Positions 17,944 to 35,200 of a DNA stretch of 47,494 nucleotides are shown here, piece after piece; within the stretch, counting starts at the first letter, position 1; each line of letters starts with the position of its first letter. A program made the position numbers and the translations under genes. The stretch spans positions 1 to 47,494 of the forward strand of contig JAEUOY010000115.1 in assembly GCA_016790515.1 (NCBI GenBank), written 5' to 3'. The notes beneath the pieces are model-generated. The model was not told the DNA's origin, searched no databases, and saw nothing but the letters and a program-made list of their open reading frames with translations. This DNA comes from Burkholderiaceae bacterium. Lineage in GTDB: Bacteria > Pseudomonadota > Gammaproteobacteria > Burkholderiales > Burkholderiaceae_C.

Positions 17944-17985
17944 CTTGCGCAAAGTCAAGCGCCGGCGGCGCGGCGCTGGCACCAT
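17944..17985 (+). promoter_or_regulatory. FNR/Anr-like box and -10 upstream of cbpA
   Basis: The 16-bp element C-TTGCG-CAAA-GTCAA-G at 17944-17959 has the TTG-N8-CAA frame of the FNR-family consensus TTGAT-N4-ATCAA, matching seven of ten defined bases. A weak -10 candidate CACCAT (17980-17985) lies 21 bases after the CAA, near the class II activation distance. Two other stress promoters in this window show the same arrangement (at 22137 and 29269). Confidence 0.5.
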
Positions 17986-18018
17986 CGCGCTGCACTTCAT
18001 CGTGCAGGGACGGCGACC

Positions 18019-18990
18019 ATGGAGTTCAAGGACTACTACAGGCTGCTCGGCGTCGAGCGCGGCGCGCCGCACGCCGAGATCAAGAGGGCCTACCGCAAGC
18101 TCGTTCGCCAGTACCACCCCGATGTCAGCCAGGCCGCCGATGCACAGGTGCGCATGCAGGAGATCAACGAGGCCTGGGAGGTGCTGCAGGACCCGGAGAG
18201 GCGCGCCGCCTACGACCGGCTGGGCCAGCGCTGGCAGGGCGGCGGCGAGTTCCGGCCGCCGCCCGACTGGACTGCCGGATTCGAGTTCAGCGGCGCCCCC
18301 GAGGGCTGGGGCGACGGCGGCGCCGGCCACAGCGACTTCTTCGAGGCCCTGTTCGGCGCCGCCCGCCACCGTGCCGGCGGTCGCGCCCATCCGGCAGCCG
18401 AGGGCGGCTTCGCGGCGCGCGGCAGCGACCACCACGCCAGGATCGTCGTGCCGCTGGAGGATGCCTTCACCGGCGCGACCCGCACGCTGACGCTGCAGGC
18501 CGTCGAGGCCGATGCGCAGGGCCGGCCGCAGCTGCGCGAGCGGCAGCTGTCGGTCGCGATTCCGAAGGGCCTGAAGGCCGGCCAGCAGATCCGCCTGGCC
18601 GGCCAGGGCAGCCCCGGCTTCGGCGGCGGCGCGCCGGGCGACCTGTTCCTCGAACTGCAATTCGAGCCGCATCCGCGCTACCGGGTCGACGGCCGCGATC
18701 TCTACGTCGGGCTGCCGGTCGCGCCCTGGGAGGCTGCACTGGGCGCGACGCTGCCGGTGGCCACCCCCGGCGGCCCGATCGAGATCAACGTGCCGGCCGA
18801 ATCGCAGCCCGGCCGCAAGCTGCGGCTCAGGGGCCGCGGCATCCCGGCGGCTGCACCTTCGGGCACGCCCGGGGACCTGTACCTGGTGCTCGAGCTGGTG
18901 CTGCCGCCGGCGAACACCGAGGCGGCACGCGCCGCGTACCGCCGCATGGCTCTGGACCTGGCGTTCGACCCGCGCCAGGGCCAGGGCTGA
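18019..18990 (+). CDS. cbpA: DnaJ-like co-chaperone CbpA
   Basis: A 323-residue J-domain protein. The J-domain occupies residues 1-70 with the HPD tripeptide at 33-35 (QYHPDVS), which stimulates DnaK ATPase. A glycine/phenylalanine-rich linker with no zinc-finger follows, then two beta-barrel substrate-binding domains (about 130-300) with segments such as VAIPKGLKAGQQIRLAGQG and PGDLFLELQFEPHPRYR. Absence of the CxxCxGxG zinc repeats separates it from DnaJ and identifies CbpA. The CbpA modulator CbpM is encoded 17 bases downstream, and an FtsH paralogue follows, making a protein-quality-control operon. An FNR-like box lies 60 bases before the start. Confidence 0.92.
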   Translation: MEFKDYYRLLGVERGAPHAEIKRAYRKLVRQYHPDVSQAADAQVRMQEINEAWEVLQDPERRAAYDRLGQRWQGGGEFRPPPDWTAGFEFSGAPEGWGDGGAGHSDFFEALFGAARHRAGGRAHPAAEGGFAARGSDHHARIVVPLEDAFTGATRTLTLQAVEADAQGRPQLRERQLSVAIPKGLKAGQQIRLAGQGSPGFGGGAPGDLFLELQFEPHPRYRVDGRDLYVGLPVAPWEAALGATLPVATPGGPIEINVPAESQPGRKLRLRGRGIPAAAPSGTPGDLYLVLELVLPPANTEAARAAYRRMALDLAFDPRQGQG

Positions 18991-19007
18991 CGCAGGAGCC
19001 TTCGCCC

Positions 19008-19331
19008 ATGTCATCGCCAACCACCACCGTCGTCATCACCCAGGCCAGCTGCCTCGGCGAGGGCGACTGGCTCGACGCCGCCGAGCTGGCCCGGGCCTGC
19101 CAGGTCGAATCGGCCTACATCGCGCAGCTGGTCGACGAGGGCCTGCTGGCGCCGGCGCAGACCGAGCCCGCCTGGCGCTTCGGCAGCGACGAGCTGGCGC
19201 GGCTGCGCCGCATCCAGCGCCTGCGCGCCGATTTCGACGCCAGCCTGCCGGCAGTGGCGCTGATGCTCGACCTGCTCGACGAGGTCGAGCGCCTGCGCGG
19301 CCTGCTGCCGCCGGCGGGCCGCCATGGCTGA
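19008..19331 (+). CDS. cbpM: Chaperone modulator CbpM
   Basis: A 107-residue MerR-like helical protein. The core [27 protein letters not shown] (around residues 21-47) resembles a winged-helix DNA-binding fold, but in CbpM it binds the J-domain of CbpA and inhibits it. The C-terminal helix [17 protein letters not shown] is typical. It lies directly after cbpA, as in E. coli. The last eight bases overlap the start of the FtsH gene (ATG at 19324), so the modulator and protease are translationally coupled. A GAG-rich ribosome site (AGGAG at about 18993-18997) precedes the ATG. Confidence 0.9.
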
Positions 19332-21210
19332 ACCGGCCGGCCGCCGCGCCGGCCCGTCGATGCTCGACCGCAAGCAGGGCTGGAACATCGGCTACTGGCT
19401 GATCGCGCTGCTGATGCTGATGCTGCTGCAGGACCTGTGGCGCGGCGCGTCGCAGGTCGAGGCGGTGCCTTACAGCGAGTTCGAGAAGGCGCTGGCCGAC
19501 GGCCGCATCACCGAGGTGGTGATCAGCGACCGCAGCATCCGCGGCACGCTGAAGTCGAGCGACGGCGGCAAGACGCTGCTGGTGGCCAACCGGGTCGAGC
19601 CCGACCTGGCCGCGCGGCTCGACCACTTCAAGGTGCCCTACACCCGCGTCGTCGAGAGCACGCTGCTGCGCGACGTGATGTCGTGGATCGTGCCCACCGC
19701 GCTGTTCTTCGGGCTGTGGTATTTCGTGATCCGCCGCATGGCCGAGAAATCGGGCGGGATCGGGGGCGTGGGCGGGCTGGGCGGCTTCATGGCGGTCGGC
19801 AAGAGCCATGTCAAGGTCTATGTCGAGACCGCCACCGGCGTGACGTTTGCCGACGTGGCCGGGGTCGACGAGGCCAGGCACGAACTGGAGGAGGTGGTCG
19901 ACTTCCTCAAGCACCCGCAGGCCTTCGGCCGGCTCGGCGCGCACATCCCCAGGGGCGTGCTGCTGGTTGGCCCGCCGGGCACCGGCAAGACGCTGCTGGC
20001 CCGCGCGGTGGCCGGCGAGGCCGGGGTGCCGTTCTTCTCGATCTCGGGCAGCGAGTTCGTCGAGATGTTCGTCGGCGTCGGCGCTGCCCGCGTGCGCGAC
20101 CTGTTCGAGCAGGCCCGCCAGCGCGCGCCGGCGATCATCTTCATCGACGAGCTCGACGCGCTGGGCCGCGCGCGTGGCGCCTTCCCCGGCATCGGCGGCC
20201 ACGACGAGAAGGAGCAGACGCTGAACCAGCTGCTGGTCGAGATGGACGGTTTCGACACCTCGTCCGGGCTGATCATCCTGGCGGCGACCAACCGGCCCGA
20301 GATCCTCGACCCGGCGCTGCTGCGCGCCGGCCGCTTCGACCGCCAGGTGCTGGTCGACAAGCCCGACCGCATCGGCCGCGTGCAGATCCTGCAGGTACAC
20401 GGGCGCAAGGTGACGCTGGCGCCCGGCCTGTCGCTCGACGACGTGGCCGCGCTGACCCCCGGCTTCACCGGCGCCGACCTCGCCAACCTGGTCAACGAGG
20501 CGGCGCTGGCGGCCACCCGGCGCAAGGCCGACGCGGTGACGTTGGCCGACTTCACCGCCGCGGTCGAGCGCATCGTCGCCGGGCTGGAGAAGCGCAACCG
20601 GCTGTTGAACCCGCAGGAGCGCAAGGCGGTCGCCTACCACGAGATGGGCCATGCGCTGGTCGCGCTGGCGCAGCCGGGCATCGACGTGGTGCACAAGGTG
20701 TCGATCATCCCGCGCGGCATCGGCTCGCTGGGCTACACGATCCAGCGCCCGACCGAAGACCGCTACCTGATGACCCGCCACGAGCTGCTGCAGAAGATCA
20801 GCGTGCTGCTGGCCGGCCGCGCCGCCGAACGGCTGGTGCTCGGCGAGATCTCCACCGGCGCCGCCGACGACCTGGCGCGCGCCAGCGACATCGCCCGCGA
20901 CATGGTCACCCGCTACGGCATGGACGAGGGCCTGGGCTGCGTGGCCTATGCGCCGCCGCATCCGGTGACGCCGGGGCTGCCGCCCGACTGGGGCAACGCC
21001 GGCCCGTCGCTGTCACCCGAGACGCAGTCGCGCATCGATGCCGCGGTGCATGGCCTGGTGAGCGCCGGGCTGGCCCAGGCCACTGCCCTGCTGACACAGC
21101 ACCGCGTGCTGCTCGAACGCGGCGCCCAGGCGCTGCTCGAAAAGGAGACGCTGGACGAGGCCGCGCTGCGCGAGCTGACCGCCGGGCTGCGGCCGGCCGA
21201 GGCTCAGTGA
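19324..21210 (+). CDS. ftsH: ATP-dependent zinc metalloprotease, FtsH paralogue
   Basis: A 628-residue membrane-bound AAA protease. Two N-terminal membrane segments lie near residues 22-38 and 115-133, enclosing a periplasmic domain. The AAA module has Walker A GPPGTGKT at 216-223, Walker B IIFIDELD at 271-278 and the second-region-of-homology segment [21 protein letters not shown]. The zinc site HEMGH is at 439-443. All catalytic residues are intact. The glycine-rich stretch after the second helix ([11 protein letters not shown]) is unusual. Its place behind cbpA-cbpM, not beside the housekeeping partner rrmJ, marks it as an accessory copy. Such extra FtsH proteins have been linked to heat and oxidative-stress tolerance in other bacteria. 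The 3' end overlaps the convergent universal stress gene by seven bases. Confidence 0.92.
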
Positions 21211-22043
21211 CTCATCAGTACCGGCAGGGTCATCGACGACATCACGGTGCGGGTGACGCCGCCGGTCACCCATTCGCGGATCCGGGCATGGCCGTAGCAG
21301 CCCATCACCAGCAGGCCGGCGTCCAGGTCGGCGGCCAGCGACAGCAGGTGGTCGCCGAGCTCGCGCGTGGCCGGCCCATTCTGGTGCAGCTGCGCGCCGA
21401 CGCCGTGGCGCTGCAGGTAGGCCTGCAGCGGGCCGGCGTCGGTGGGCGTGCCCGGCGTCTGGCTGTCGTTCCACATCGCCACGTGGACCTCGTCGGCCTG
21501 CTGCAGCAGCGGCAGTGACGCGCTCAGCGCCCGCGCGGCCTCGCGGCAGGGCTTCCACGCCACCAGCGCGACGCGCATGGTCGCCACGCGCTGCGCGGTG
21601 TAGGGCACCACCAGCACCGGCCTGCCGCTGTCGTTGAGCGTCCATTCGACGAAGTCGGCCGGCACGTCCTGCGCCGCGCCGAGCTTGGGATCGTGCTGCC
21701 CCAGGACGACCAGGTCGGCCACCATCGCGGCGCGGGTGAAGCCGATCAGGCCCTGCTCGCGCGTCAGCTCGGCCCATTGCAGCCGGGTCATGCCGGCCTT
21801 CACCGCGGCGTCGAAGTGCGTGCGCGCCAGGTCGCGCCGCTTCGATTCCAGCGCGCTGGCCATCGTCGTGAGCTCCAGCCCCGGGCTGACGCCGAACGGG
21901 AACTGCAGGTCCACCGGCGTCGGGGCGAACATCGCCGTCACCGCGCTGTCGTGCGCCTCTGCCAGCTGATGGGCGAGGGCCAAGCGCACCGGGCAATGCG
22001 GTGACGAATCGACGTGCGCCAGGATGGCGGCGAGCGAACTCAT
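21204..22043 (-). CDS. Universal stress protein, tandem-type length
   Basis: A 279-residue protein in the UspA superfamily, long enough for two domains. The second domain keeps the nucleotide-binding signature G-2x-G-9x-G near the C-terminus ([22 protein letters not shown], around residues 250-271). The first domain begins [14 protein letters not shown] and lacks a clear version of it, so one ATP site is expected. The ATG at 22043 is preceded by GGAG; an upstream ATG at 22088 is not. It runs towards and overlaps the end of ftsH. Tandem USPs of this kind often accompany anoxia or stationary-phase survival genes. The molecular action is unknown. Confidence 0.85.
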
Positions 22044-22136
22044 CGTGAGACTCCGGTGAAAGGCCAGGCCCGAGCATAGACCGCGCACCGCCCGCCGCGT
22101 TGCGGGAAATCACCGGCCGGGCCCGGCACCGGCGGG

Positions 22137-22179
22137 CTTGCGCCCGCTCAAGGCGTGGCCGTCGTGTCCGGCGCAGGAT
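22137..22179 (+). promoter_or_regulatory. FNR/Anr-like box and -10 upstream of groEL
   Basis: The 16-bp element C-TTGCG-CCCG-CTCAA-G at 22137-22152 keeps the TTG-N8-CAA frame of the FNR-family consensus, with the same outer C and G as the two other boxes in this island. A -10 candidate CAGGAT (22174-22179) lies 22 bases after the CAA. The sequence fits class II activation; no CIRCE element or sigma-32 promoter was seen here. Confidence 0.5.
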
Positions 22180-22223
22180 CGCGACATCGGCGTGGCCGCG
22201 ACACGCCGACGAAGGAGCCGACG

Positions 22224-23858
<1,635 letters not shown>

Positions 23859-23875
23859 CCGGGCAGGGGACCACG

Positions 23876-24541
23876 ATGAAGACACCGTTCGCCAACCGTG
23901 CCGAGGCCGGCCGCTTGCTCGCCGAGCGCCTCGTCGGGCTGAACCTGCCGCCGCCGCGCGTCGTGCTGGCGCTGCCGCGCGGCGGCGTGCCGATCGCCGC
24001 GCCGGTCGCCCGTGCGCTGCACGCGCCGCTGGACCTGCTGCTGGTGCGCAAGATCGGCCTGCCCTGGCAGCCCGAGCTGGCGCTGGCCGCCGTCGTCGAC
24101 GGCGACCCGCCCGAGATCGTCGTCGACGAGGCGGTGCAGGCGGTCAGCGACGTCGAGCCCGGCTACATCGAGCGGCAGGCCCAGGTCGAGCTGCAAGAGA
24201 TCGCCCGCCGCCGCGCGCTCTACCTGAAGGGGCGCTCGCCGGTGCCGGTGGCCGGCTGCACCGCGATCGTCGTCGACGACGGCATCGCCACCGGCACGAC
24301 GGTGCGCGCCGCGCTGAAGGCGCTGCGCCGCCGCCAGCCGGCGAATCTGGTGCTGGCGGTGCCGGTGGCGCCGAGCGACACGCTGGCCGAGCTGCGCGCC
24401 GAGGTCGACCAGATCGTCTGTCTGGCCGAGCCGTATCCGTTCGAGGCGATCGGCCTGCACTACCGCGACTTCCATCAGGTGCCCGACGCCGAGGTGCTGG
24501 CCGCGCTGGCGGCCGCCGCGGCGCCGGACAAGCCGGCGTGA
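23876..24541 (+). CDS. Phosphoribosyltransferase-family protein
   Basis: A 221-residue type I phosphoribosyltransferase fold protein. The PRPP-binding loop reads IVVDDGIATGTTVRAAL around residues 130-147. The N-terminal block VLALPRGGVPIAAPVARAL followed by DLLLVRKIGLPWQPELALAAV is characteristic of the uncharacterised stress-island phosphoribosyltransferases, not of ComF, Apt or Hpt. The acceptor base or other substrate is unknown. It lies 17 bases after groEL, and its stop overlaps the GTG start of the HhH protein (GTGA). A PRPP synthetase two genes downstream would supply its co-substrate. Confidence 0.85.
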   Translation: MKTPFANRAEAGRLLAERLVGLNLPPPRVVLALPRGGVPIAAPVARALHAPLDLLLVRKIGLPWQPELALAAVVDGDPPEIVVDEAVQAVSDVEPGYIERQAQVELQEIARRRALYLKGRSPVPVAGCTAIVVDDGIATGTTVRAALKALRRRQPANLVLAVPVAPSDTLAELRAEVDQIVCLAEPYPFEAIGLHYRDFHQVPDAEVLAALAAAAAPDKPA

Positions 24542-25449
24542 GCGCTGCCGACGACGGCCGCGAGGTCGTCGAGCGCCTGCGCGAGATGGCCTTGCTGCTC
24601 GAAGCGCAGGGCGCCAACGCGTTCAGGATCGCCGCCTACCGGCGCGCCGCCGATCTGCTGGAAGAGCAGCGGCCCGACCTGCGCGCGGTGTTCGAGCGCG
24701 ACGGCCTGGCCGGGCTCGACGCCTTGCCGGGCATCGGCACCGGCATCGCCGGCGCGGTCGCCGAAATGCTGGCCACCGGCCACTGGCGCCAGCTCGACCG
24801 CCTGCGCGGCGGCGCCGACGGCGAGGCGCTGTTCCGCACGATCCCCGGCGTCGGCCCGGCGCTGGCGCGGCACCTGCACGAGGCGCTGGGCATCGACACG
24901 CTCGAGGCGCTCGAACTGGCAGCGCACGACGGCCGGCTGGAACGCCTGCCGCATCTCGGCGCGCGCCGGGCCGCGGCGATCCGCGCCGCGCTGGGCGAGA
25001 TGCTCGACCGCCGGCGCGCACTGCAGCGCCGCGCGGCGGCGCGGCCGGCCGGGCTGGAGCCGCCGGTGGCGCTGCTGCTCGACGTCGACCGCGAGTACCG
25101 CCAGGGCGCCGAGGCCGGCCGCCTGCCGCTGATCGCGCCGCGGCGCTTCAACCCGGGCAACGCGGCCTGGCTGCCGGTGCTGCACACGGCGCGCGACGAC
25201 TGGCAGTTCACCGCGCTGTTCTCGAACACCGCCCGGGCGCATGAGCTGGGCCGGGTGCACGACTGGGTGGTGCTGTACTGCGAGGACAAGGACCACGGCG
25301 CGCGCCAGTACACCGTGGTCACGCCGGCCGGCGGACCGCTGGCCGGCCGCCGCGTCGTGCGCGGCCGCGAGGCCGAATGCCAGGCCTGGTACGCGTCCTG
25401 GCCGGCCCTGCGCGCTGCCGACCCGACCCCCGCGCACCGGAGCCGCTGA
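24538..25449 (+). CDS. HhH protein, PolX-like N-terminal fold without polymerase domain
   Basis: A 303-residue protein starting at a GTG that overlaps the preceding stop. Residues 8-45 (VVERLREMALLLEAQGANAF) resemble the 8-kDa lyase domain of family X DNA polymerases. Three helix-hairpin-helix elements follow: LPGIGTGIAGAV near 62-73, IPGVGPALARHL near 104-115 and LPHLGARRAAAI near 140-151. The polymerase palm is absent. The C-terminal half, with RRFNPGNAAWLPVLHT and FTALFSNTARAHELGR, belongs to a family I do not recognise by function. DNA binding, perhaps at gaps or abasic sites, is inferred from the HhH pattern. It is embedded between a phosphoribosyltransferase and PRPP synthetase, with one- and four-base overlaps. 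Confidence 0.8.
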   Translation: MSAADDGREVVERLREMALLLEAQGANAFRIAAYRRAADLLEEQRPDLRAVFERDGLAGLDALPGIGTGIAGAVAEMLATGHWRQLDRLRGGADGEALFRTIPGVGPALARHLHEALGIDTLEALELAAHDGRLERLPHLGARRAAAIRAALGEMLDRRRALQRRAAARPAGLEPPVALLLDVDREYRQGAEAGRLPLIAPRRFNPGNAAWLPVLHTARDDWQFTALFSNTARAHELGRVHDWVVLYCEDKDHGARQYTVVTPAGGPLAGRRVVRGREAECQAWYASWPALRAADPTPAHRSR

Positions 25450-26411
25450 TGCTGATCTTCGCCCTCGACCGCCACGACCAGCCGCTGGCGCAGGCCGTCG
25501 CCGAAGAACTGGACGTCGACCTGGCGCCGCACGAGGACCGCGGCTTCGAGGACGGCGAGTCGAAAGGCCGGCCGCTGGTCGACCCGCGCGGCGCCGATGC
25601 CTACGTGCTGCTGGGCCTGCACGGCGGCCCCGAGACGACGCCGCACGACAAGCTGAGCCGGCTGCTGTTCTTCATCGCGACGCTGCGCGACCACGGCGCG
25701 GCCCGCGTCACCGCGGTGCTGCCGTACATGGCCTTCGCCCGCAAGGATCGGCGCACCCAGCCCTTCGACCCGGTCAGCCAGCGCTACCTGGCGCAGCTGA
25801 TCGAGGCGGTCGGCACGCAGCAGGTGATCACGCTGGAGGCGCACAACGTCGCGGCGATGCAGAACGCCTTCCGCTGCCCCACGCAGCACCTGCCGGTGCA
25901 TGCGGTCTTCGGCGCTCTGGCCGCCGAGCTGCAGACCGCCGGCCGCATCGTCGTGGCCTCGCCCGACCCGGGCGGCGTCAAGCGCGCGCAGCTGTGGCAG
26001 CAAGACCTGGCGCAGCAGCTGAAGCGGCCGGTCGGCTTCGCGATGCTCGACAAGCGGCGCAGCGAAGGCCGCAGCGAGGGCGCCACCGCGCTGGCCGGCG
26101 ACGTGCGCGACGCGGTGGTGCTGCTGGTCGACGACCTGATCGCCACCGGCACCACGCTGCAGCGCGCCGCGCTGGCCCTGCGCGCTGCCGGGGCGCGGCG
26201 GGTGCTGGCCTGCGCCGCACACGGGTTGTTCATCGCGCCGGCGGCCGACACGCTGGCCGACCCGGCGATCGACCAGGTGCTGGTCAGCGACAGCGTGCCG
26301 GCCTTCCGCGTGCCGGCCGAAGGCGCGTTGCGCGACAAGCTGCGGGTGCTGTCCTGCGTGCCGCTGCTGGCCTCGGCGATGCGCGAGAGCCACAGGGCCT
26401 GGCTGCGCTGA
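25449..26411 (+). CDS. Ribose-phosphate pyrophosphokinase (PRPP synthetase), accessory type
   Basis: A 320-residue enzyme that makes PRPP from ribose 5-phosphate and ATP. Family segments are FEDGESKGRPLV near residues 33-44, AVLPYMAFARKDRRTQPFDPVS near 95-116 (metal/ATP flexible loop) and the PRPP-binding loop LLVDDLIATGTT near 224-236. It is divergent from housekeeping Prs: FEDGE replaces FSDGE and the region around H130 reads ITLEAHNVAAMQNAF, not the usual DLHA. It starts by a one-base overlap (TGATG) with the HhH gene. It ends the operon groEL-PRTase-HhH-PRPP synthetase; a hairpin follows 40 bases later. A role in nucleotide salvage under stress is inference. Confidence 0.87.
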   Translation: MLIFALDRHDQPLAQAVAEELDVDLAPHEDRGFEDGESKGRPLVDPRGADAYVLLGLHGGPETTPHDKLSRLLFFIATLRDHGAARVTAVLPYMAFARKDRRTQPFDPVSQRYLAQLIEAVGTQQVITLEAHNVAAMQNAFRCPTQHLPVHAVFGALAAELQTAGRIVVASPDPGGVKRAQLWQQDLAQQLKRPVGFAMLDKRRSEGRSEGATALAGDVRDAVVLLVDDLIATGTTLQRAALALRAAGARRVLACAAHGLFIAPAADTLADPAIDQVLVSDSVPAFRVPAEGALRDKLRVLSCVPLLASAMRESHRAWLR

Positions 26412-26451
26412 CTTCGGCGAAACCAGCCGACAGGATCGGCACGCCGCTGCT

Positions 26452-26471
26452 GCCACACCCGTCGGTGTGGC
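26452..26471 (+). terminator. Hairpin after the groEL-PRPP synthetase operon
   Basis: A perfect eight-base stem, GCCACACC with GGTGTGGC, closes a four-base CGTC loop 40 bases after the PRPP synthetase stop. No T-run follows. Because the stem is perfect and placed at an operon end, termination or 3'-end protection is plausible. It could also be an operator-type palindrome. Confidence 0.45.
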
Positions 26472-26678
26472 GGTATTGCGCCTGTCCAGGTTCTGCGGGC
26501 ACCTCAGCTTGCGATCCGCGAGCAGGGTCACGCTCCGCGGCGGCGCAGGTCGACCCGTCGATCTTGCGGTTCGTGGCAGCACTGGTTGCCATCCACCGGC
26601 GCAGGCTGCCTGGGCGGCTGGCATGCAGGCTGGCGTCGGGCCAGCCGTGTCGCTGCGGTGGCCACTAACATCGGGCCG

Positions 26679-27677
26679 ATGACACGCCGCCCGATTGCCG
26701 CCACGCCACGCCACGACGCCCGCCGGGCCGAAGCACGGTCCGCGGTGGGCAGGTCGACCCCGCGTCGGTTCGTCCACCGTCCGGCGCTGGCGGCATCGGC
26801 CCTGATGCTGCTGGGCACGGCCGCGCCCGCACAGGAGCTCGAACCCCGGGCCTATTCGAATGCGCCGGTCGGGTTCAACTTCCTGGTCGTGGGCTATGGC
26901 CGGTCGCAGGGCGGCCTGTCGTTCGATCCCGCACTGCCGATCGAGGATGCGAAGCTGAAGATCGACTCCGCGGTGTTCGCCTATGCGCGCACGCTGGACC
27001 TGTGGGGCAAGTCCGGCCGCTTCGATGTCGTGCTGCCGTACTCGCACCTGTCGGGCAGCGCGATGGTCGCCGGCCAGCCGGCCGAACGGCAGATCACCGG
27101 CTTCAGCGAGCCGCGGTTCCGCCTCTCGGTCAACCTGTACGGCGCGCCGGCGCTGTCGCTGCAGGAGTTCTCGCGCTACCAGCGGGACCTGGTCGTCGGC
27201 ACCAGCCTGCAGGTGTCGCTGCCCAGCGGCCAGTACGACCCCAGCCGGGCCATCAACCTGGGCAGCCATCGCTGGACGGTCAAGCCGGACATCGGCTTTT
27301 CCAAGGCCTTCGGCGCGGCGACGCTGGACGTCACCGCAAGCGCCACCTTCTACGGCGACAACAGCGACTACTACGGCGGCCAGACCCTCGAGCAGGCGCC
27401 GCTCTACGCCACCCAGGCCCATCTCAGCTGGGACTTCGGCGGCGGCATCTGGGCCGCGCTGGGCGGCACCTACTACCGCGGCAGCCGGGTCACGATCAAC
27501 GGCAACACCAGCCTGATCGAACTGGGCAACAGCCACGCCGGCGCGATGCTGGCGCTGCCCGTCGATCGCCATCAGTCGGTCAAGTTCAGCCTGAGCAGCA
27601 GCATCAAGACCCGCACCGGGTCCGATCTCACCGCCTTCGCGATGGCCTGGCAGGTCCGCTGGGGCGCCGGGTACTGA
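26679..27677 (+). CDS. Outer-membrane transporter-like beta-barrel protein (phenol MetA-like family)
   Basis: About 332 residues. A long basic n-region is followed by a hydrophobic core and cleavage region (LAASALMLLGTAAPAQE), so the protein is exported. The mature part consists of alternating beta strands (for example VNLYGAPALSLQEF, VVGTSLQVSLPSGQYD, VTASATFYGDN) and ends with an aromatic terminal strand, TAFAMAWQVRWGAGY, as in outer-membrane barrels. The family resembles the MetA-pathway-of-phenol-degradation transporter-like proteins, whose role is not established. The start is uncertain: ATG at 26679 and GTG at 26745 are both in frame, neither with a clear ribosome site; the latter gives a more normal leader length. 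It sits alone between two stress operons. Confidence 0.75.
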   Translation: MTRRPIAATPRHDARRAEARSAVGRSTPRRFVHRPALAASALMLLGTAAPAQELEPRAYSNAPVGFNFLVVGYGRSQGGLSFDPALPIEDAKLKIDSAVFAYARTLDLWGKSGRFDVVLPYSHLSGSAMVAGQPAERQITGFSEPRFRLSVNLYGAPALSLQEFSRYQRDLVVGTSLQVSLPSGQYDPSRAINLGSHRWTVKPDIGFSKAFGAATLDVTASATFYGDNSDYYGGQTLEQAPLYATQAHLSWDFGGGIWAALGGTYYRGSRVTINGNTSLIELGNSHAGAMLALPVDRHQSVKFSLSSSIKTRTGSDLTAFAMAWQVRWGAGY

Positions 27678-27693
27678 TGCGCCTGCCCGCCGC

Positions 27694-28755
27694 TCAGCCG
27701 GGCTGGGGCGGGCTCGACGCCAGCGCCAGGTAGCGCCGGCCCAGCGCCAGCCAGTGATCGTGCCGGCTCGGCCGGGCGTCGAGCAGGTGCGCCACCGCCA
27801 GCCGCGCCCGCAGCAGCGCCCGGTCGAGGCGGTAGAACTGCAGCAGCGCGGGTGGCGGCAGGTCGTCCAGCCGTTCGCTGCAGCGCCCGATCAGCAGGGG
27901 GCCGACCCAGGCGGCACCCAGGCGTTCGCATTCCAGGCCCAGTGCGCTCAGTTCCTCGAAGGGGTCGACCTGGCGCAGCGCATCGTTGAAGGCCAGGCAG
28001 TCGATGACCACCGGCGGCTCGACCAGGCAGACATGCTCGGCGCGCAGGTCGCCGTGGCCGTCGACGACGTGGCGCTGGCGCACCCGCTGGCGCAGCGCCT
28101 CGTCGAGCTGGCCGAGCAGGCGCTCGGCCCGGTCCAGCAGCGGCGCGGCCTCAACCAGCGCGAAGTTCGCATCGCCCAGCACCTGGCGGTGCCGGGCCTG
28201 TTCGGCGTGAAAGCGCGCGAGATGGGCATCGGCATCCACCGGCGCCGGCAGCGCATGCTGGTAGAAGCGCGCCAGCGTCGAGGCCAGCAACTCGACCTGG
28301 GCCGGCTGCAGATGGCCGGTGGCGATCATCCGGTCGAGCATGCACTCGGCCGGCAGGCGCTGCATCTGCACCAGCCAGTCGACCGTCTCGCCTCCGGCTG
28401 GCAGCGCCGCCTCGGGCTGCAGCGACAAGCGGCCATCGGGCTCTTGCTGCACGGCCAGCAGCCCCTGATAGACCTCGGGCGCCAGGCGCCGGTTCAGTCG
28501 CAGCTCGGCGCGCGCATCACGCTCGCGGTCGGCCACCGTGCGGTAATCGAGCAGCGGCGGGTAGCAGACCGGCTTCTTCAGCTTCAGCACCTGCCGGGCG
28601 TCGAGCACGATCCAGGACATGTGCGTCTCGATCGCCTCGACCGGCGCGCTGCCCGCCGCATGGGCCTGCGGCGACAGCAGGAAGTGCAGCGTCTCCAGCG
28701 ACCGGTCGAACAGCGTCCGATCGACCGGCACCCGCTGTTGCGCCGCCTCGCTCAC
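27694..28755 (-). CDS. Aminoglycoside phosphotransferase-like kinase-fold protein
   Basis: A 353-residue cytoplasmic protein starting at GTG (28755), which overlaps the Hsp20 stop by four bases (GTGA). The kinase-like catalytic loop VVDGHGDLRAEHVCL and the metal-binding segment VVIDCLAFNDALRQVDP are those of the aminoglycoside phosphotransferase-like family (COG2187 type). In many family members a C-terminal P-loop kinase domain follows, giving about 500 residues. Here the protein ends after the phosphotransferase-like domain. It is unlikely to be an antibiotic-resistance gene: context is Hsp20 and universal stress proteins, where such proteins recur. The true substrate is unknown. Confidence 0.82.
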   Translation of the reverse strand: MSEAAQQRVPVDRTLFDRSLETLHFLLSPQAHAAGSAPVEAIETHMSWIVLDARQVLKLKKPVCYPPLLDYRTVADRERDARAELRLNRRLAPEVYQGLLAVQQEPDGRLSLQPEAALPAGGETVDWLVQMQRLPAECMLDRMIATGHLQPAQVELLASTLARFYQHALPAPVDADAHLARFHAEQARHRQVLGDANFALVEAAPLLDRAERLLGQLDEALRQRVRQRHVVDGHGDLRAEHVCLVEPPVVIDCLAFNDALRQVDPFEELSALGLECERLGAAWVGPLLIGRCSERLDDLPPPALLQFYRLDRALLRARLAVAHLLDARPSRHDHWLALGRRYLALASSPPQPG

Positions 28756-29177
28756 TCGATCGCCAGCCGCTTCGAACTCGGTTCGGCCTTCTTCGGCATC
28801 GTCAGTTCGAGCACGCCGTTGGTGTACCTGGCCTGGGCCTTGGCATCGTCGACCGGCTTGTCCAGCCACAGCGTGCGGCTGGCATAGCCATAGCGCCGCT
28901 CGGAGCGCAGCACGCGGCCGTCCTTCTTCTCTTCCGATTCCTGCTTGACTTCGGCGCTGACGCTGACCTGATTGCCGTCGATGCGCACGTCGATGTCTTC
29001 CTTGCGCACGCCGGGGATCTCGGCCTTCAGCGTGTAGGCAGCGTCGGTTTCGCTCAGGTCCACCTTGATCTGCGGCGTGCCTTCGCCCGCCTCGCCGCGC
29101 CACGGGCCCAGCATGCGGCGGAACGCGTCCTCGAACGGGTCGAGCGCCAGCAGTTCGTTTCTACGTGGGTTGCTCAT
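28752..29177 (-). CDS. Small heat-shock protein, Hsp20/alpha-crystallin family
   Basis: A 141-residue holdase chaperone. The alpha-crystallin domain runs from about residue 38 to 130 (KVDLSETDAAYTLKAEIPGV ... GVLELTMPKK), and GVLELTMPK is the conserved strand before the C-terminal tail. Small heat-shock proteins bind unfolding proteins without ATP and pass them to DnaK or ClpB. An ATG two codons upstream (29183) is only one base from the AGGAG ribosome site, so the ATG at 29177, with seven-base spacing, was chosen. It is divergent from a universal stress gene across a region with an FNR-like palindrome. It is coupled to the downstream phosphotransferase-like gene. Confidence 0.92.
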   Translation of the reverse strand: MSNPRRNELLALDPFEDAFRRMLGPWRGEAGEGTPQIKVDLSETDAAYTLKAEIPGVRKEDIDVRIDGNQVSVSAEVKQESEEKKDGRVLRSERRYGYASRTLWLDKPVDDAKAQARYTNGVLELTMPKKAEPSSKRLAIE

Positions 29178-29242
29178 GGTCATGCTCCTCGGAGTGGCCT
29201 GAACCCGGTGGAGGCGGCAGGCCACGGACCACCTCGGTCCAG

Positions 29243-29311
29243 ATTCTGCGCGTCGCGCCGACCGCGGTCTTGAGTTGGCTCAAGCCTTGCCCGAGGTCGG
29301 CGGCCGATCAT
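29243..29311. promoter_or_regulatory. Bidirectional FNR/Anr-like promoter between hsp20 and usp
   Basis: A perfect palindrome CTTGAG-TTGG-CTCAAG at 29269-29284 matches eight of ten bases of the FNR consensus TTGAT-N4-ATCAA. On the plus side a -10 candidate GATCAT (29306-29311) lies 22 bases from the CAA. On the minus side CAGAAT (complement of 29243-29248) lies 21 bases from the TTG. The symmetric spacing would allow one dimer to activate hsp20 and usp together, as in class II FNR promoters. Confidence 0.6.
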
Positions 29312-29334: not shown

Positions 29335-29763
29335 ATGATGAAGCTCCTGGTGGCGGTGGATGGTTCCGAACCGGCACGCCACGCGATCGACGCAACGGCC
29401 CGCCTGGCCCGTGAACTGGGCAGCGCCGAGGTGCTGCTGCTGAACGTGCGCGACAACCCGATCTACTACGGCGAGCTGCCGGCCTTCGACGCCGAATCGG
29501 TCGAGCGCGCGATGGCTGCCGCGCAGCAGGACCTGCTGGCCGCCGCGGTGGCGCAGGCGCACGAGGCGGGGCTGCAGCAGGTCAGCGCGCTGGCGGCCGA
29601 AGGGCTGGCGGCGCAGCAGATCGCGCGAACGGCCACCGAGAAGAAGGTCGACCAGATCGTGATGGGCACCCATGGCCGCAATCCGCTGGGAGGCCTGCTG
29701 CTAGGATCGGTCGCCCAGCGCGTGGTGCATCTGGCGACGCTGCCGGTGTTGCTGGTGAAGTGA
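29335..29763 (+). CDS. Universal stress protein, single domain
   Basis: A 142-residue UspA-family protein. The N-terminal strand KLLVAVDGSEPARHAIDAT begins with the nucleotide-binding DGS, and the C-terminus carries the ATP-binding pattern GTHGRNPLGGLLLGSVAQRVV (G-2x-G-9x-GS). It is therefore expected to bind ATP. Starts at 29335 and 29338 are both possible behind the GAGGAGA ribosome site; the first is reported. It is divergent from hsp20 and followed 45 bases later by an ABC exporter operon, with which it may be co-transcribed. Such single-domain USPs support survival under growth arrest or oxygen limitation; the mechanism is not visible here. Confidence 0.9.
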   Translation: MMKLLVAVDGSEPARHAIDATARLARELGSAEVLLLNVRDNPIYYGELPAFDAESVERAMAAAQQDLLAAAVAQAHEAGLQQVSALAAEGLAAQQIARTATEKKVDQIVMGTHGRNPLGGLLLGSVAQRVVHLATLPVLLVK

Positions 29764-29808: not shown

Positions 29809-30543
<735 letters not shown>

Positions 30544-30553
30544 AGGCCGCGCG

Positions 30554-32938
30554 ATGAAAGCCCTGGACCGCAAGCTGCTGCGCGACCTGCGAACGCTGTG
30601 GAGCCAGGCGCTGACGATCGCGCTGGTGGTGGCCAGCGGCGTGGCCGGCTTCATCACCACGCTGTCGGCGGTCGATTCGCTCGAGGCGGCGCGCGACCGC
30701 TTCTATGCCGAGGCCCATTTCGCCGACGTCTTCGCGGCGCTGAAGCGCGCGCCGCTGGCGCTGGCCGACGAGTTGCGCGGGCTGCCCGGCGTCGCCGACG
30801 TGCAGACCACGCTGGAGATGGCGGTGCGCGTCGAGCGCGACGGCAGCAGCGAGCCGATCATCGGCCAGATGATCGGCGTCGACCCGCGCCGGCCGGCGCG
30901 GCTGAACCAGGTCTCGCTGCGCGGCGCGCGGCCGGTCGACCCGGCGTTCTTCACCCCCGGCAAGCCGCTGCCCGACGGCGCGCTGCCGGTCTGGGTGTCG
31001 GAGGTCTTCGCCACCGCCAACGGCCTGAAGCCCGGCGCGCGGCTGTCGGCGCTGATCAACGGCAAGCGCCGCACGCTGCAGCTGGTGGCGGTGGCGCTGT
31101 CGCCCGAGTACGTGTTCGCCGGTCTCTGGGGCATGCCCGACCAGCGCGGCTTCGGCGTGTTCTGGGTCGACCACGAGGCGCTGGCCGCCGCCTACGACAT
31201 GACCGGCGCGTTCAACCAGCTGGCCGTGAAACTGGCACCGGGCGGAGACGAACGCGCGGTGATCGACGCGCTGGGACTGCGCCTGGCCGCCTACGGCGGC
31301 CGCCAGGCGCATGGCCGCGCCGACCAGGTCTCGCACGCGATGCTGAACAACGAAGTCAAGGAGCAGCAGGTGATCGCCACGCTGCTGCCGGCGATCTTCC
31401 TCGCGGTGGCCGCCTTCCTGCTGAACGTGGTGATCTCGCGGCTGGTCGCCACCCAGCGCGAGCAGATCGCCGCGCTGAAGGCGCTGGGCTACGCCAACCG
31501 GCGCATCGCCGGCCATTACCTGACGATGGTGCTGGCGATCGTCGCGCTCGGCCTCGCGATCGGCGTGGCGCTGGGCGAGGTGCTGGGCGGCCTGTTCGTC
31601 GGGCTGTACGCCGAGTTCTTCCGCTTCCCGGTGTTCGAGCACCGCATGGCACCGTGGCTGGTGCTCGTCAGCGGCGCGCTGACCCTGGCCACCGCGGTGC
31701 TGGGCACGCTGAGCGCGATCGCCGGCATCGTGCGGCTGGCGCCGGCCGAGGCAATGCGCCCGCCGGCACCCGGCCGCTACCGCCGCACGCTGCTGGAGCG
31801 GCTGGGCCTGCAGCGCATCGGCACCACCACGCGGATGATCCTGCGCCAGATGGAGCGCCGGCCCTGGCGCACCGCGCTGTCGATCGGCGGCGTCGCGGCC
31901 TCGGTGGCGATCGTCGTGCTGGGCAACTTCTTCCGCGACGCGATCGAGTTCATCGTCGACGCCCAGTTCAACCTGACGATGCGCAACCAGGTCGCGGTCT
32001 GGGCGATCGACCCGCTGGACGCCGGCGCCGCCCGCGAACTGGCGCGGCTGCCCGGCGTCGACGCGGTGGAGCCGACCCGCTTCGTCTCGGTGACGCTGGT
32101 CAACGGCCACCGGCGCGAGCGCAGCCAGATCCGCGGCTACGCGCCGGTGCCCGAGCTGTACCGCATCATCGACGTCGACCTGCGCGCGGCCGCGCTGCCG
32201 CCCGACGGACTGGTGCTGACCGACCGGCTGGCCGCCAAGCTGGGCGTGCGGGTGGGCGACCGGCTGCGTGTCGAGGTGCTCGAAGGCCGCGAGCGCACGC
32301 TGGACCTGCGCGTGGACGCCACGGTGCGCGAGATGATGGGGCTGAACGCCTACATGGCGCGCCCGGCGCTGAACCGCCTGCTCGGCGACGGCGACCTGGC
32401 CGGCGGCTTCATGCTGGCCATCGCCCCGGGGCACGAGGCCGCGGTGCTGAAGGCCACCCAGGCCATGCCGCGGGTGGCCGGCGCCTTCAGCAAGGCGACG
32501 ATGCTGCGCAACATGGAAGAGATCAGCGCGCGCAACATCCGCATCATGAGCACGGTGCTGACGATCTTCGCCAGCGTGATCGCGGTCGGCGTGGTCTACA
32601 ACAACGCCCGCATCGCGCTGGCCGAGCGCGGCTGGGAGCTGGCCAGCCTGCGCGTGCTGGGCTTCACCCGCGCCGAGGTGTCGGCGCTGCTGCTGGGCGA
32701 GATGGCGATCGTCGTCGCGCTGGCGCTGCCGCTGGGCATGCTGGCCGGCTGGGGCCTGGTGCATGCGCTGGCCGGCGCGCTTCAGAGCGACCAGTTCCTG
32801 TTTCCGGTCATCATCCGGCCGCGCACCTTCGCCTGGGCGGCGGTCTGCGTGGTGCTGGCGGCGGTGGCCAGCGCGCTGGTGGTGCGCCGGCACATCGACC
32901 GGCTGGACATGGTGGCGGCCTTGAAGACGCGGGAGTGA
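30554..32938 (+). CDS. ABC transporter permease with two FtsX domains
   Basis: A 794-residue membrane protein, about twice the length of MacB- or DevC-type permeases. An N-terminal helix near residues 17-36 is followed by a large periplasmic domain (to about 265). A first FtsX domain with three helices follows near 275-400 (including ATLLPAIFLAVAAFLLNVVIS). After a re-entry helix near 445-460 and a second periplasmic domain comes a second FtsX domain near 665-775 (IMSTVLTIFASVIAVGVVYN). The architecture is that of duplicated FtsX permeases that act with a single ATPase type, so one chain may form the whole membrane unit. It ends two bases before the adaptor gene. Function in export or lipoprotein/lipid handling is inferred. 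Confidence 0.88.
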   Translation: MKALDRKLLRDLRTLWSQALTIALVVASGVAGFITTLSAVDSLEAARDRFYAEAHFADVFAALKRAPLALADELRGLPGVADVQTTLEMAVRVERDGSSEPIIGQMIGVDPRRPARLNQVSLRGARPVDPAFFTPGKPLPDGALPVWVSEVFATANGLKPGARLSALINGKRRTLQLVAVALSPEYVFAGLWGMPDQRGFGVFWVDHEALAAAYDMTGAFNQLAVKLAPGGDERAVIDALGLRLAAYGGRQAHGRADQVSHAMLNNEVKEQQVIATLLPAIFLAVAAFLLNVVISRLVATQREQIAALKALGYANRRIAGHYLTMVLAIVALGLAIGVALGEVLGGLFVGLYAEFFRFPVFEHRMAPWLVLVSGALTLATAVLGTLSAIAGIVRLAPAEAMRPPAPGRYRRTLLERLGLQRIGTTTRMILRQMERRPWRTALSIGGVAASVAIVVLGNFFRDAIEFIVDAQFNLTMRNQVAVWAIDPLDAGAARELARLPGVDAVEPTRFVSVTLVNGHRRERSQIRGYAPVPELYRIIDVDLRAAALPPDGLVLTDRLAAKLGVRVGDRLRVEVLEGRERTLDLRVDATVREMMGLNAYMARPALNRLLGDGDLAGGFMLAIAPGHEAAVLKATQAMPRVAGAFSKATMLRNMEEISARNIRIMSTVLTIFASVIAVGVVYNNARIALAERGWELASLRVLGFTRAEVSALLLGEMAIVVALALPLGMLAGWGLVHALAGALQSDQFLFPVIIRPRTFAWAAVCVVLAAVASALVVRRHIDRLDMVAALKTRE

Positions 32939-32940
32939 GG

Positions 32941-34191
32941 ATGCAGACCCGGAGCAGGATCGGCCTGATCGGCGGCGCAATGGTGCTGGTGGCGCTGCTG
33001 GCCTGGGCCTTTGCGCCGCGGCCGCTGGACGTGGAGGTGGCGCAGGCCGTGCAGGGCCCGTTCGAGAGCGCCGTCAGCGAGGACGGCAAGACCCGGCTGC
33101 GCGAGCGCTACACCGTCTCGGCGCCGCTGGCCGGGCGGCTGGCGCGCATCCGGCTCGACGAAGGCGACCGGGTCGAGGCCGGCGCGGTGCTGGCAACGCT
33201 GACGCCGGTGCTCTCGCCGCTGCTCGACGAGCGCAGCCAGCGCGAGCTGAAGGCGCGCATCGACGCCGCGCAGGCCAACCTGGCGCGCAGCGCGGCGCGG
33301 CTCGAACGCGCCAGGCTGGGCGTCGCCCAGGCCCGCAACGACCAGCAGCGCAGCGAGCAGCTGGCCCAGCAGGGCTTCGTCGCGGCCACCCGGCTGGAGA
33401 CCGAGCGCCTGGCGGTGCAGGCCGCCCAGCGCGAGGTGGAGGCTGCCGAGCAGGAGCGCCATGTCGCCCGCCACGACCTCGAGCAGGCCCGGGCGGCGCT
33501 GGCCGCCACCCAGGGCACGCCCGGCGGCAGGCCCTTCGAGCTGAAGTCGCCGGTGGCCGGCCAGGTGCTGCGCGTGCTGCAGGTCAGCGAGACCACCGTG
33601 GCGCTGGGCATGCCGCTGCTCGAACTGGGCGACCTGGGCCAGCTGGAGGTGGTGGCCGAGCTGCTGACCGCCGACGCGCTGGCCACGCCGCCGGGCAGCG
33701 CGGTGCGCATCGAGCGCTGGGGCGGGCCTATCACGCTGCAGGGCGTGGTGCGCCGGGTCGAGCCGGCGGCGTTCACCAAGGTCTCGGCGCTGGGCGTCGA
33801 GGAACAGCGCGTGCGGGTGCTGATCGACATCACCAGCCCGCCCGAACAGTGGAAGACGCTGGGCGACGGCTACCGCGTCGGCGTGCGCATCGTCACGCTG
33901 GCGCTGCCGCAGGCGGTGACGGTGCCGGTGAGCGCGGTGTTTCCCCTGCCCGGTGGTGGCAGCGCGGCGGGCGAGGGCGCCGGCGAACCCGCCAACCCTG
34001 GCGTGGGCAGCGAACGCCAGGCGGTGTTCGTCGTCGACGGCGGACGCGCCAGGCTCAAGCCGGTGCAGGTGGGCGCCCGCAACGGCATCCAGGCCTGGGT
34101 GCGCGAAGGCCTGGCCGCCGGCGCGCAGGTGATCGTCTACCCCGGCGCCGCGGTGGTCGACGGCGCGCGGGTCAAGCCGCGCAAGGTGTAG
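32941..34191 (+). CDS. HlyD/RND-type periplasmic adaptor subunit
   Basis: A 416-residue membrane-fusion protein. A signal-anchor helix (GLIGGAMVLVALLAWAF, residues 8-24) is followed by the first lipoyl half (VSAPLAGRLARIRLDEGDRVEAG near residues 60-82), a long alpha-helical hairpin rich in Ala, Gln, Glu and Arg (about 95-195), the second lipoyl half (KSPVAGQVLRVLQ) and a beta-barrel region. The C-terminal half has a glycine-rich linker (GGGSAAGEGAGE). It bridges the inner-membrane permease to an outer-membrane channel, which is not encoded in the window. It follows the permease gene by two bases and precedes the broken alcohol dehydrogenase by nine. Confidence 0.9.
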   Translation: MQTRSRIGLIGGAMVLVALLAWAFAPRPLDVEVAQAVQGPFESAVSEDGKTRLRERYTVSAPLAGRLARIRLDEGDRVEAGAVLATLTPVLSPLLDERSQRELKARIDAAQANLARSAARLERARLGVAQARNDQQRSEQLAQQGFVAATRLETERLAVQAAQREVEAAEQERHVARHDLEQARAALAATQGTPGGRPFELKSPVAGQVLRVLQVSETTVALGMPLLELGDLGQLEVVAELLTADALATPPGSAVRIERWGGPITLQGVVRRVEPAAFTKVSALGVEEQRVRVLIDITSPPEQWKTLGDGYRVGVRIVTLALPQAVTVPVSAVFPLPGGGSAAGEGAGEPANPGVGSERQAVFVVDGGRARLKPVQVGARNGIQAWVREGLAAGAQVIVYPGAAVVDGARVKPRKV

Positions 34192-34200
34192 GAGGCCCCG

Positions 34201-35200
34201 ATGTCCGCGATCGCGATGGCCCTGGTTCAGCCGGCCGCTCGCCGGCTCGAAGCGATTCCCTGCCCGATGCCGGCCCTGCAGCCCGGCCAGGTCCGGCTGC
34301 GGGTGCGCGCCTGCGGCGTCTGCCGCACCGACCTGCATGTGGTCGACGGCGACCTGGCAACGCCAGGGCTGCCGCGCATCCCCGGCCACGAGATCGTCGG
34401 CGAGGTGGTCGAGACCAGCGCCGGCTGCGAACCCTGGCGCATCGGCGACCGCGCCGGCGTGGCCTGGCTGCACGACACCTGCGGCCACTGCCGCTGGTGC
34501 GCCAGCGCGCGAGAACCTGTGCGGCAGCGCGCGCTTCACCGGCTGGAGCGTCGACGGCGGCTATGCCGAGTACGCCGTGGCGCCGGCCGAGGCCTGCATC
34601 GCGATCCCGCCGGGCTACGGCGACGTCGACGCTGCGCCGCTGCTGTGCGCCGGGCTGATTGGCTACCGCGCCTGGCGCATGGCGGGGGAGGGTGCCGACC
34701 CGGCGGTGGTCGGCCTCTACGGCTTCGGCGCCGCCGCGCACCTGATGGCCCAGGTGGCGCTGGCCGAAGGCCGCACCGTCTACGCCTTCACCCGGGCCGG
34801 CGACACCGCGGCGCAGCAGCTGGCGCTGTCGCTGGGCGTGCACTGGGCCGGCGATCCGGCCCAGGCGCCGCCGCAACCGATGGACGCCGCGATCCTGTTC
34901 GCGCCGGCCGGCGAACTGGTGCCGCAATCGCTGGCCCAGCTGCAGCCCGGCGGCACGGTGGTCTGCGCCGGCATCCACATGAGCGACATCCCGTCGTTCC
35001 CGTACCGGCTGCTGTGGATGGAGCGCCGCATCCGCTCGGTCGCCAACCTGACGCGGCGCGACGGCCATGAATTCATGGCCTGGGCGGGCCGGCACCGGCT
35101 GCGGCTGGCGACGCGGGCCTACCCGCTGGTGCAGGCGAACGAGGCGCTGGATGATCTGCGGGCGGGGCGGATTGCGGGGGCGGCGGTGTTGACGGCCTGA
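34201..35200 (+). pseudogene. Zinc-dependent alcohol dehydrogenase, frameshifted
   Basis: The gene reads as a complete medium-chain zinc alcohol dehydrogenase only if the frame changes near base 34507. The first part encodes the catalytic-zinc segments ACGVCRTDLHVVDGDL and IPGHEIVGEV and the structural-zinc loop up to CGHCRWCAS. From 34508 a second frame continues with RENLCGSARFTGWSVDGGYAEY, the NAD-binding core (VVGLYGFGAAAH) and the C-terminus ending AGAAVLTA. Family comparison (expected SGRENLC) suggests two bases are missing, or one added, within the structural zinc loop. In the intact state it would interconvert alcohols and aldehydes, typically under low oxygen. It lies nine bases after the adaptor gene. 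Either a true pseudogene or a sequencing error; no other damage is visible. Confidence 0.85.

Follow-up and report, generated by a model that had tools for sequence, protein, structure and literature searches.

Altered FNR/FixK-type half-sites before stress operons of a Burkholderiaceae bacterium point to a probable low-oxygen regulon

Introduction

Which regulator reads three palindromes of the same form lying in front of the chaperone, protease and universal stress genes of a Burkholderiaceae bacterium, and to what signal does it respond? The question is raised by a stretch of 47,494 bases (hereafter the window, meaning the whole stretch of DNA that was analysed), which represents ~1% of a metagenome-assembled genome (MAG) of 82% completeness and at both ends of which the contig ends. 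An earlier note, made from the letters alone, had described three 16-bp elements with −10-like hexamers and proposed that they define an oxygen-responsive regulon of the CRP/FNR family with a diverged half-site. Our comparative analysis leads us to consider, with a probability of roughly two in three, that these boxes are class II CRP/FNR sites of a single regulon, read at low oxygen by a FixK-type regulator under the control of a FixL-like kinase.

Results

Three palindromic boxes in the window

The three elements were found with the letters and at the places previously reported. Box 1 (17944–17959, plus strand; CTTGCGCAAAGTCAAG, with CTTGCG and GTCAAG around the spacer CAAA) lies before cbpA-cbpM-ftsH and pairs a TTGCG half with a canonical GTCAA half. 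Box 2 (22137–22152, plus strand; CTTGCGCCCGCTCAAG, CTTGCG and CTCAAG around CCCG) precedes groEL, with 72 bp from its CAA to the groEL ATG, and box 3 (29269–29284; CTTGAGTTGGCTCAAG, CTTGAG and CTCAAG around TTGG) has no strand of its own, being common to the divergent hsp20 and usp transcripts. The −10-like hexamers claimed at 21–22 bp from the CAA are likewise present: on the plus strand, CACCAT (17980–17985) 21 bp after box 1, CAGGAT (22174–22179) 22 bp after box 2 and GATCAT (29306–29311) 22 bp after box 3, on the usp side; on the minus strand, CAGAAT (29243–29248) 21 bp from box 3, on the hsp20 side. Gene calls made with a codon-score script trained on the window genes, which perhaps overestimates the intergenic share in lower-GC relatives, placed all three boxes in the intergenic part of the window (4,233 bases, 8.9%), as the earlier note had stated.

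Dinucleotide shuffles of the window yielded an expectation of 0.38–0.46 CTTG-N8-CAAG sites, and neither this pattern nor TTG-N8-CAA has any site beyond boxes 1–3 in all 47,494 bases. At least three CTTG-N8-CAAG sites arose in 2 of 100 and 2 of 300 such shuffles. The bare TTG-N8-CAA shows no excess (3 seen, 2.7 expected), and the tighter form of the element named in the earlier note, a definition made after the fact, is expected 0.017 times. When the intergenic stretches were shuffled, none of 5,000 shuffles produced three intergenic sites each accompanied by a −10-like hexamer (mean, 0.027 such sites). The boxes have the 14-bp inverted repeat TTG-N8-CAA of class II CRP/FNR sites and lie in promoter regions. 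The canonical FNR box (TTGAT/C-N4-A/GTCAA) has no occurrence in the window, where the halves are of the form TTG[A/C]G and a single canonical half is found, that of box 1.

Conservation in homologous islands

Homologous islands were located using as bait the HhH-domain protein of the groEL operon, which had matches in 18 of the 399 genomes of the family set (E ≤ 1e-15): 12 strong and near full length (own genome included, one match being in two pieces) and 6 partial. Named genomes, when scanned, contributed 17 loci, most of them from other classes and phyla; some of the alphaproteobacterial ones carry canonical boxes (e.g., L083, L086). This patchy distribution suggests that the HhH protein has spread horizontally.

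We fetched the 11 strong loci of other genomes with their flanks (~35.5 of 228 kb intergenic, window included). Together with the window, they contain 52 intergenic and 7 genic TTG-N8-CAA sites, against 2 and 8, respectively, for the backward control GTT-N8-AAC; TTGMGN4CKCAA was found 23 times between genes and never within, and the canonical TTGAYN4RTCAA 7 times and never, respectively. The class TTGMGN4CKCAA was defined after inspecting the relatives' islands, so that its counts in L093–L103 are partly post hoc; two further locus sets were chosen by regulator homology and by hsp20 homology.

Homologues of the island groEL (66–78% identity) exist in 3 of the 11 loci (L096, L099, L101), all three with a box before the gene. 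Measured to the residue aligned with the groEL start, the distance is ~57–72 bp, and a −10 follows the box at 21 or 22 bp (with the codon-score gene calls of the three relatives, the distances become 49, 183 and 69 bp). Of 29 hsp20-homologous loci from other genomes, we excluded L253, which begins at a contig edge; a box with its −10 signal was found 61–114 bp upstream in 16 of the remaining 28. Seven of these boxes are altered in both halves and nine in one half, and none is fully canonical (at L243, counted among the seven, the box bearing the −10 is a one-half box). Two conditions that would have counted against the earlier proposal, an element as common inside genes as upstream of them and a lack of conservation before orthologous genes, did not hold as far as computation could tell.

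Promoter geometry and the altered half-site

We defined the −10 signal as a hexamer whose second base is A and whose sixth is T, and scored it for boxes of the window and of the relatives' islands that were intergenic and at most 250 bp from a fitting start, collapsing duplicates. It occurs at 21–23 bp from 72 of 92 distinct boxes (69 of 89 without those of the window), as compared with 6, 3, 11 and 4 of the 92 at four control offset sets. Before duplicates were collapsed, the fraction by offset was 0.37 at 21 and 0.26 at 22, and 0.00–0.07 at all others within 8–39. Loci L137–L143 were selected for holding such boxes, their −10s being disregarded in the selection. Among oriented promoters, the −10 accompanies 42 of 60 TTGMG/CKCAA boxes, 29 of 49 with one such half, 5 of 8 canonical ones and 2 of 11 of other classes, versus 0–3 promoters in each class at control offsets. 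In class II CRP/FNR promoters, the box is centred at −41.5, with the −10 about 22 bp from it. The spacing observed is that of this promoter class. Taken with the intergenic placement and the conservation in relatives, it gives good support to two parts of the original proposal, the assignment to the CRP/FNR type and the diverged half-site.

The consensus of the boxes is TTG[A/C]GC-N2-GC[G/T]CAA. In a profile of 76 oriented promoters, the left half reads TTG, A (0.61) or C (0.39), G (0.71), C (0.57) and any base, and the right half any base, G (0.55), C (0.78), G (0.47) or T (0.51), and CAA; the 11 oriented boxes of other classes are omitted from it, which sharpens positions 4, 5, 10 and 11. 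We regard this half-site as a real and new dialect of that of FNR/FixK, in a probable low-oxygen regulon of known type. No paper in the literature text searched gives this motif for betaproteobacteria, which does not in itself show that none exists; for TTGCGNNNNCGCAA and other spellings in that text, only PMC1274295 bears on the motif, judging by title.

Occurrence in the rest of the MAG

The strict 16-mer CTTGMGN4STCAAG has 8 places in the MAG (5 for the backward control): 3 in the window and, outside it, 4 intergenic and 1 genic. CTTG-N8-CAAG was discarded as a genome-wide marker for being unspecific (59 places vs. 150 for the backward control). TTGMGN4CKCAA occurs at 9 intergenic and 4 genic places; a −10 signal, in either direction, is present at 6 of the 9 intergenic ones (2 of them in the window) vs. 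none of the 4 genic ones, and some of the 9 have no called gene in their vicinity. Outside the window, boxes altered in one or both halves and accompanied by a −10 precede, among others, the genes at C145:2060 and C13:11730, which, from reading their translations, are nitroreductase-like and ribosome-hibernation-factor-like, respectively. At the second of these places (G000:C13:11730–11743, in L132), TTGAGGCAGCTCAA is followed by TAGAGT at 21 bp and stands ~208 bp before the ribosome-hibernation-factor-like gene, possibly a further target outside the window.

Candidate regulators

No CRP/FNR regulator was detected in the window with a hidden Markov model built from the CRP/FNR proteins of the MAG. 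The MAG itself has 15 HTH_Crp_2 matches (13 above cut-off), including a canonical FNR with its cysteine cluster (L009; 245.5 bits with the Fnr model, cut-off 228). Its members with an ExxSR helix (the L011 fragment, L013, L014, L015 and L020) were also considered as candidates, and nothing links them to the boxes.

Inside two of the islands, there is a CRP/FNR-family gene of one kind (L139 of G281 and L103 of G058). A search with the G281 protein retrieved 37 genomes at E ≤ 3.4e-45, and from 2.4e-43 onwards canonical FNRs and others follow in a continuum. In the regulator tree these proteins form a clade, which we call clade A (support 99/98), with 30 rows corresponding to 29 of 30 loci plus P0003; the rows L147 and L148 had been cut at a wrong motif and L150 was dropped, so that the placement of these three is unsure. 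The recognition helix AHET(V/I/T)SR was found in 28 of 31 clade A rows, the pattern having matched another part of the protein in the other 3. Alignment of the four cysteine columns showed all four FNR cysteines in none of the 31 clade A rows, none of the 9 rows of a second clade (clade B) and 9 of 12 canonical-side FNR rows; the clade A regulator scored 116 bits with the Fnr model, below its cut-off of 228. Clade A thus corresponds to the published FixK group, namely the part of the FNR-FixK clade in which at least one of the four FNR cysteines is missing (PMC2908626).

Around the 30 clade A genes, TTGMGN4CKCAA occurs 11 times in 34.6 kb of intergenic and once in 71.4 kb of genic sequence; the numbers are 4 and 0 for canonical boxes and 20 and 6 for other TTG-N8-CAA. 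Matches to the box followed by 21 N and YANNNT average 4.0 in the 37 clade A genomes vs. 1.3 in 362 others, with 0.4 in both groups for the backward control, absolute counts being inflated by near-identical, apparently genic strings in related genomes. Four of the 12 genomes in which HhH matched strongly have clade A, which had no match at E ≤ 1e-20 in the plasmid collection.

Clade B (9 rows, support 100/100), which was traced starting from the island of G143, a genome of the same genus, is present in 6 (G143, G199, G101, G284, G344 and G314) of 10 searched genomes, which had been chosen for having islands or many boxes without clade A; it was not found in G000, G017, G184 and G327. The member in the G143 island is a complete regulator fused behind PAS and GGDEF in one frame (L106:2437–4041 of G143:C1, minus strand), and in G344 (L205) a GGDEF motif lies ahead of the regulator in the same frame. 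TTGCG-type boxes, among others, adjoin these two GGDEF-linked members. Canonical boxes stand beside some clade B members (L206, L213), so that a link to the dialect does not extend to the whole clade.

Kinases and a probable oxygen signal

A histidine-kinase or NarL-type response-regulator match lies within the fetched flanks of 21 of the 30 clade A loci and was not seen in those of 9; a FixL-like PAS part is found near the clade A gene at 11 of the 30. In the G058 kinase, the first PAS domain had its best solved-structure match in FixL heme domains (4e-11). The column of the FixL heme-histidine, the residue which binds heme, holds His in 15 of 15 PAS matches (the query itself and 13 further genes, with one gene counted twice), and the kinase domain is nearest to VraS/DesK types. 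In relatives, a heme-PAS FixL-like kinase and a response regulator are hence linked to the regulator. In addition, the table of the alphaproteobacterial FixK regulon contains FixL, Hsp20, HlyD, ABC subunits and Zn alcohol dehydrogenase; in the text available, this list stands above the FNR heading, and two of its entries are named elsewhere as FixK targets (PMC2908626). By analogy with the kinases of relatives and with published regulons, low oxygen is most likely the signal. It is on these two lines of comparison that the oxygen part of the earlier proposal rests, and no dedicated regulator was found in the MAG.

Genes of the putative regulon

Behind box 1 lie, on the plus strand, genes for a CbpA-like DnaJ-domain protein (18019–18990; Pfam DnaJ, DnaJ_C), a CbpM-like MerR_2 protein (19008–19331; Pfam MerR_2) and an FtsH-type membrane AAA protease (19324–21210; Pfam Peptidase_M41, AAA, FtsH_ext). 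Box 2 is followed, on the same strand, by the GroEL-type chaperonin of the island (22224–23858; Pfam Cpn60_TCP1; the gene with homologues in L096, L099 and L101), a phosphoribosyltransferase (23882–24541; Pfam Pribosyltran), the HhH-domain protein (24538–25449; Pfam HHH_8, HHH_5) and a called gene for a PRPP-synthetase-like protein (25449–26411; Pfam Pribosyltran_N). Enzymes of nucleotide type are thus found beside a chaperonin, the phosphoribosyltransferase and PRPP-synthetase-like genes (23882–26411) running together with groEL.

From box 3, hsp20 (28752–29183, minus strand; Pfam HSP20) reads leftwards and the universal stress protein gene usp (29335–29763, plus strand; Pfam Usp) rightwards. 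Genes for an ABC ATPase, an FtsX/MacB-type permease and an HlyD-type protein (29809–34191, plus strand; Pfam ABC_tran, FtsX, MacB_PCD, HlyD_3) follow usp and, given gaps of 45, 10 and 2 bases, are likely on its transcript. After them, a zinc alcohol dehydrogenase (34201–35200) is apparently split over the open reading frames 34201–35070 and 34337–35200, which may reflect an assembly error or a decayed gene. On the other side, between an outer-membrane-type protein and hsp20, a 353-residue protein is encoded on the minus strand (27694–28755), with no Pfam match at E ≤ 0.001.

Discussion

The explanation that we favour supposes that the three boxes are activator sites centred ~41.5 bp upstream of the transcription start and unite in one regulon cbpA-cbpM-ftsH, the groEL-phosphoribosyltransferase-HhH-PRPP synthetase operon and the divergent hsp20 and usp-ABC-HlyD transcripts. 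Their likeliest reader would be of FixK type, that is, an FNR-like protein devoid of the four [4Fe-4S] cysteines, and a FixL-like heme-PAS kinase would set the synthesis or activity of this regulator when oxygen falls. We infer that a protein of this kind binds the boxes, that its signal is low oxygen, and that the present organism possesses one, presumably encoded in the unassembled part of its genome.

Several observations weigh against this explanation. In the 82%-complete MAG we found neither clade A nor clade B regulators, and the best match in both searches was its canonical FNR. Likewise, none of its four kinase matches is convincingly FixL-like: three cover the kinase domain alone, and the fourth, on C66, extends over the PAS part (29% identity). 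The parts of a FixLJ-FixK cascade were, thus, not recovered from this incomplete assembly. The absence of the regulator is weak evidence, because the assembly is only 82% complete and the contig of the island ends at both window ends. TTGMGN4CKCAA alone was rejected as a marker in the MAG, where it is in no excess (13 places vs. 14 backward). Concerning relatives, 12 of the 28 hsp20 homologues have no box, the island of G249 and, partly, that of G059 carry canonical TTGAY-N4-RTCAA boxes, and G017 has the box promoter and no match to clade A or B. The association of clade A with the number of box-plus-YANNNT matches (Mann-Whitney P = 3e-7) ignores kinship, so that phylogeny may contribute to it; at least three matches occur in 22 of 37 clade A genomes and also in 61 of 362 negative ones. 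The clade A cut-off itself is a chosen value, the nearest excluded match following closely.

The main rival is that the organism's own canonical [4Fe-4S] FNR (C174, P0005) reads the boxes as off-consensus sites, without any dedicated regulator. Apart from it, the assembly yielded no close relative of FNR/FixK; box 1 retains one canonical GTCAA half, 9 of the 16 hsp20 boxes elsewhere pair an altered with a canonical half, and the canonical boxes of the G249 island and, in part, of the G059 island would also fit. Moreover, a hybrid Fnr1/Fnr3 motif has been described in Herbaspirillum for a group of promoters including usp genes (PMC5934665). However, the MAG has a separate, enriched set of canonical boxes (24 places vs. 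6 for the control), none of them in the window, and in relatives the half-site is altered to the same bases, clade A genomes being enriched for this form. We therefore judge this possibility, although serious, to be unlikely.

The other alternatives appear much less plausible. A nitric-oxide regulon of NnrR type is suggested by the TTGCG-N4-CGCAA form, a published alphaproteobacterial motif whose consensus ctTTGcgnnnncgCAAag fits many of the G143 boxes (PMC1274295). Nevertheless, it is improbable: by Pfam, the targets are genes for chaperones, a protease, Usp and ABC proteins and include no nir, nor or nos genes of denitrification, and the linked regulators, often beside FixL-like kinases, score as FNR/FixK-like (although NCBIfam perhaps has no NnrR model). 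CTTGA resembles the −35 of heat-shock (sigma-32) promoters, and several heat-shock-type genes belong to the set. Sigma-32 promoters have a spacing of 13–17 bp, whereas here the left CTTGMG ends at least 30 bp from the −10. Moreover, the boxes are palindromes with a conserved −10 of the form xAxxxT at 21–23 bp. Spacing and symmetry, by which we judged without a scan, make this explanation very improbable. Finally, chance palindromes or terminators might be invoked from the 59 CTTG-N8-CAAG places in the MAG and the lack of TTG-N8-CAA excess in the window, but the conserved −10 spacing, the conservation of the hsp20 promoter and the 0 of 5,000 shuffles leave them hardly any credibility.

Going beyond a FixK-type regulon, we tentatively envisage, as a possibility rather short of even odds, an insulated regulatory dialect. 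In it, TTG[A/C]GC-N2-GC[G/T]CAA would be read by FNR paralogues lacking the cysteines, of which one clade is paired with FixL-like kinases and a second has members fused behind GGDEF. Mobile islands of chaperone, protease and Usp genes would in this way come under a control by oxygen (or linked to c-di-GMP) that is separate from FNR, while hybrid boxes, in which one half is that of FNR, might allow joint action of FNR paralogues, perhaps in the form of mixed dimers. The box and its −10 spacing provide an exact, searchable promoter signature for stress islands of low-oxygen type in a large bacterial group, tied to a specific regulator clade. They also make testable the idea that a two-base change in the half-site is what separates the targets of closely related FNR paralogues, and predict that the GroEL paralogue, the FtsH protease and CbpA/CbpM serve low-oxygen survival and are not general heat-shock genes.

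Among known systems, the gene set resembles the stress-gene island of the low-oxygen-activated (lxa) locus of the Burkholderia cepacia complex, where Usp, heat-shock and BON proteins are induced at low oxygen and FixLJ drives fixK (BCAM0049) under the same condition (PMC6127331, PMC5234846, PMC3759415). This likeness is one of genes, as the available text of these three papers gives no binding motif for lxa or FixK (BCAM0049). Herbaspirillum shares FNR paralogues (Fnr1, Fnr3) with distinct and hybrid motifs and co-regulated usp genes, although the change in its Fnr3 motif affects positions 1/14 and 6/7 instead of the 4/5 and 10/11 altered here (PMC5934665). The NnrR regulon has similar half-sites, its C, G, C and G at positions 4, 5, 10 and 11 agreeing with forms of our boxes, and differs in its denitrification targets and in the subfamily of its regulator; the same source gives CTTGATnnnnATCAAG as the DNR motif (PMC1274295). 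With the alphaproteobacterial FixLJ-FixK system (PMC2908626, PMC4999443), the regulators found here in relatives share a cysteine-less FNR-like protein, a FixL-like heme-PAS kinase and a NarL/FixJ-type response regulator, the kinase domain differing in being nearest to VraS/DesK types. Targets such as Hsp20, HlyD, ABC subunits and Zn alcohol dehydrogenase are also common to both, as are the length of the box and its C6 and G9. The published FixK/FnrN motif is TTGANCNNGATCAA (PMC4999443), whereas the present boxes have A or C at position 4, mostly C at 10 and G or T at 11, so that TTG[A/C]G and C[G/T]CAA take the place of TTGAN and ATCAA, and cbpA-ftsH and the groEL operon are added to the regulon.

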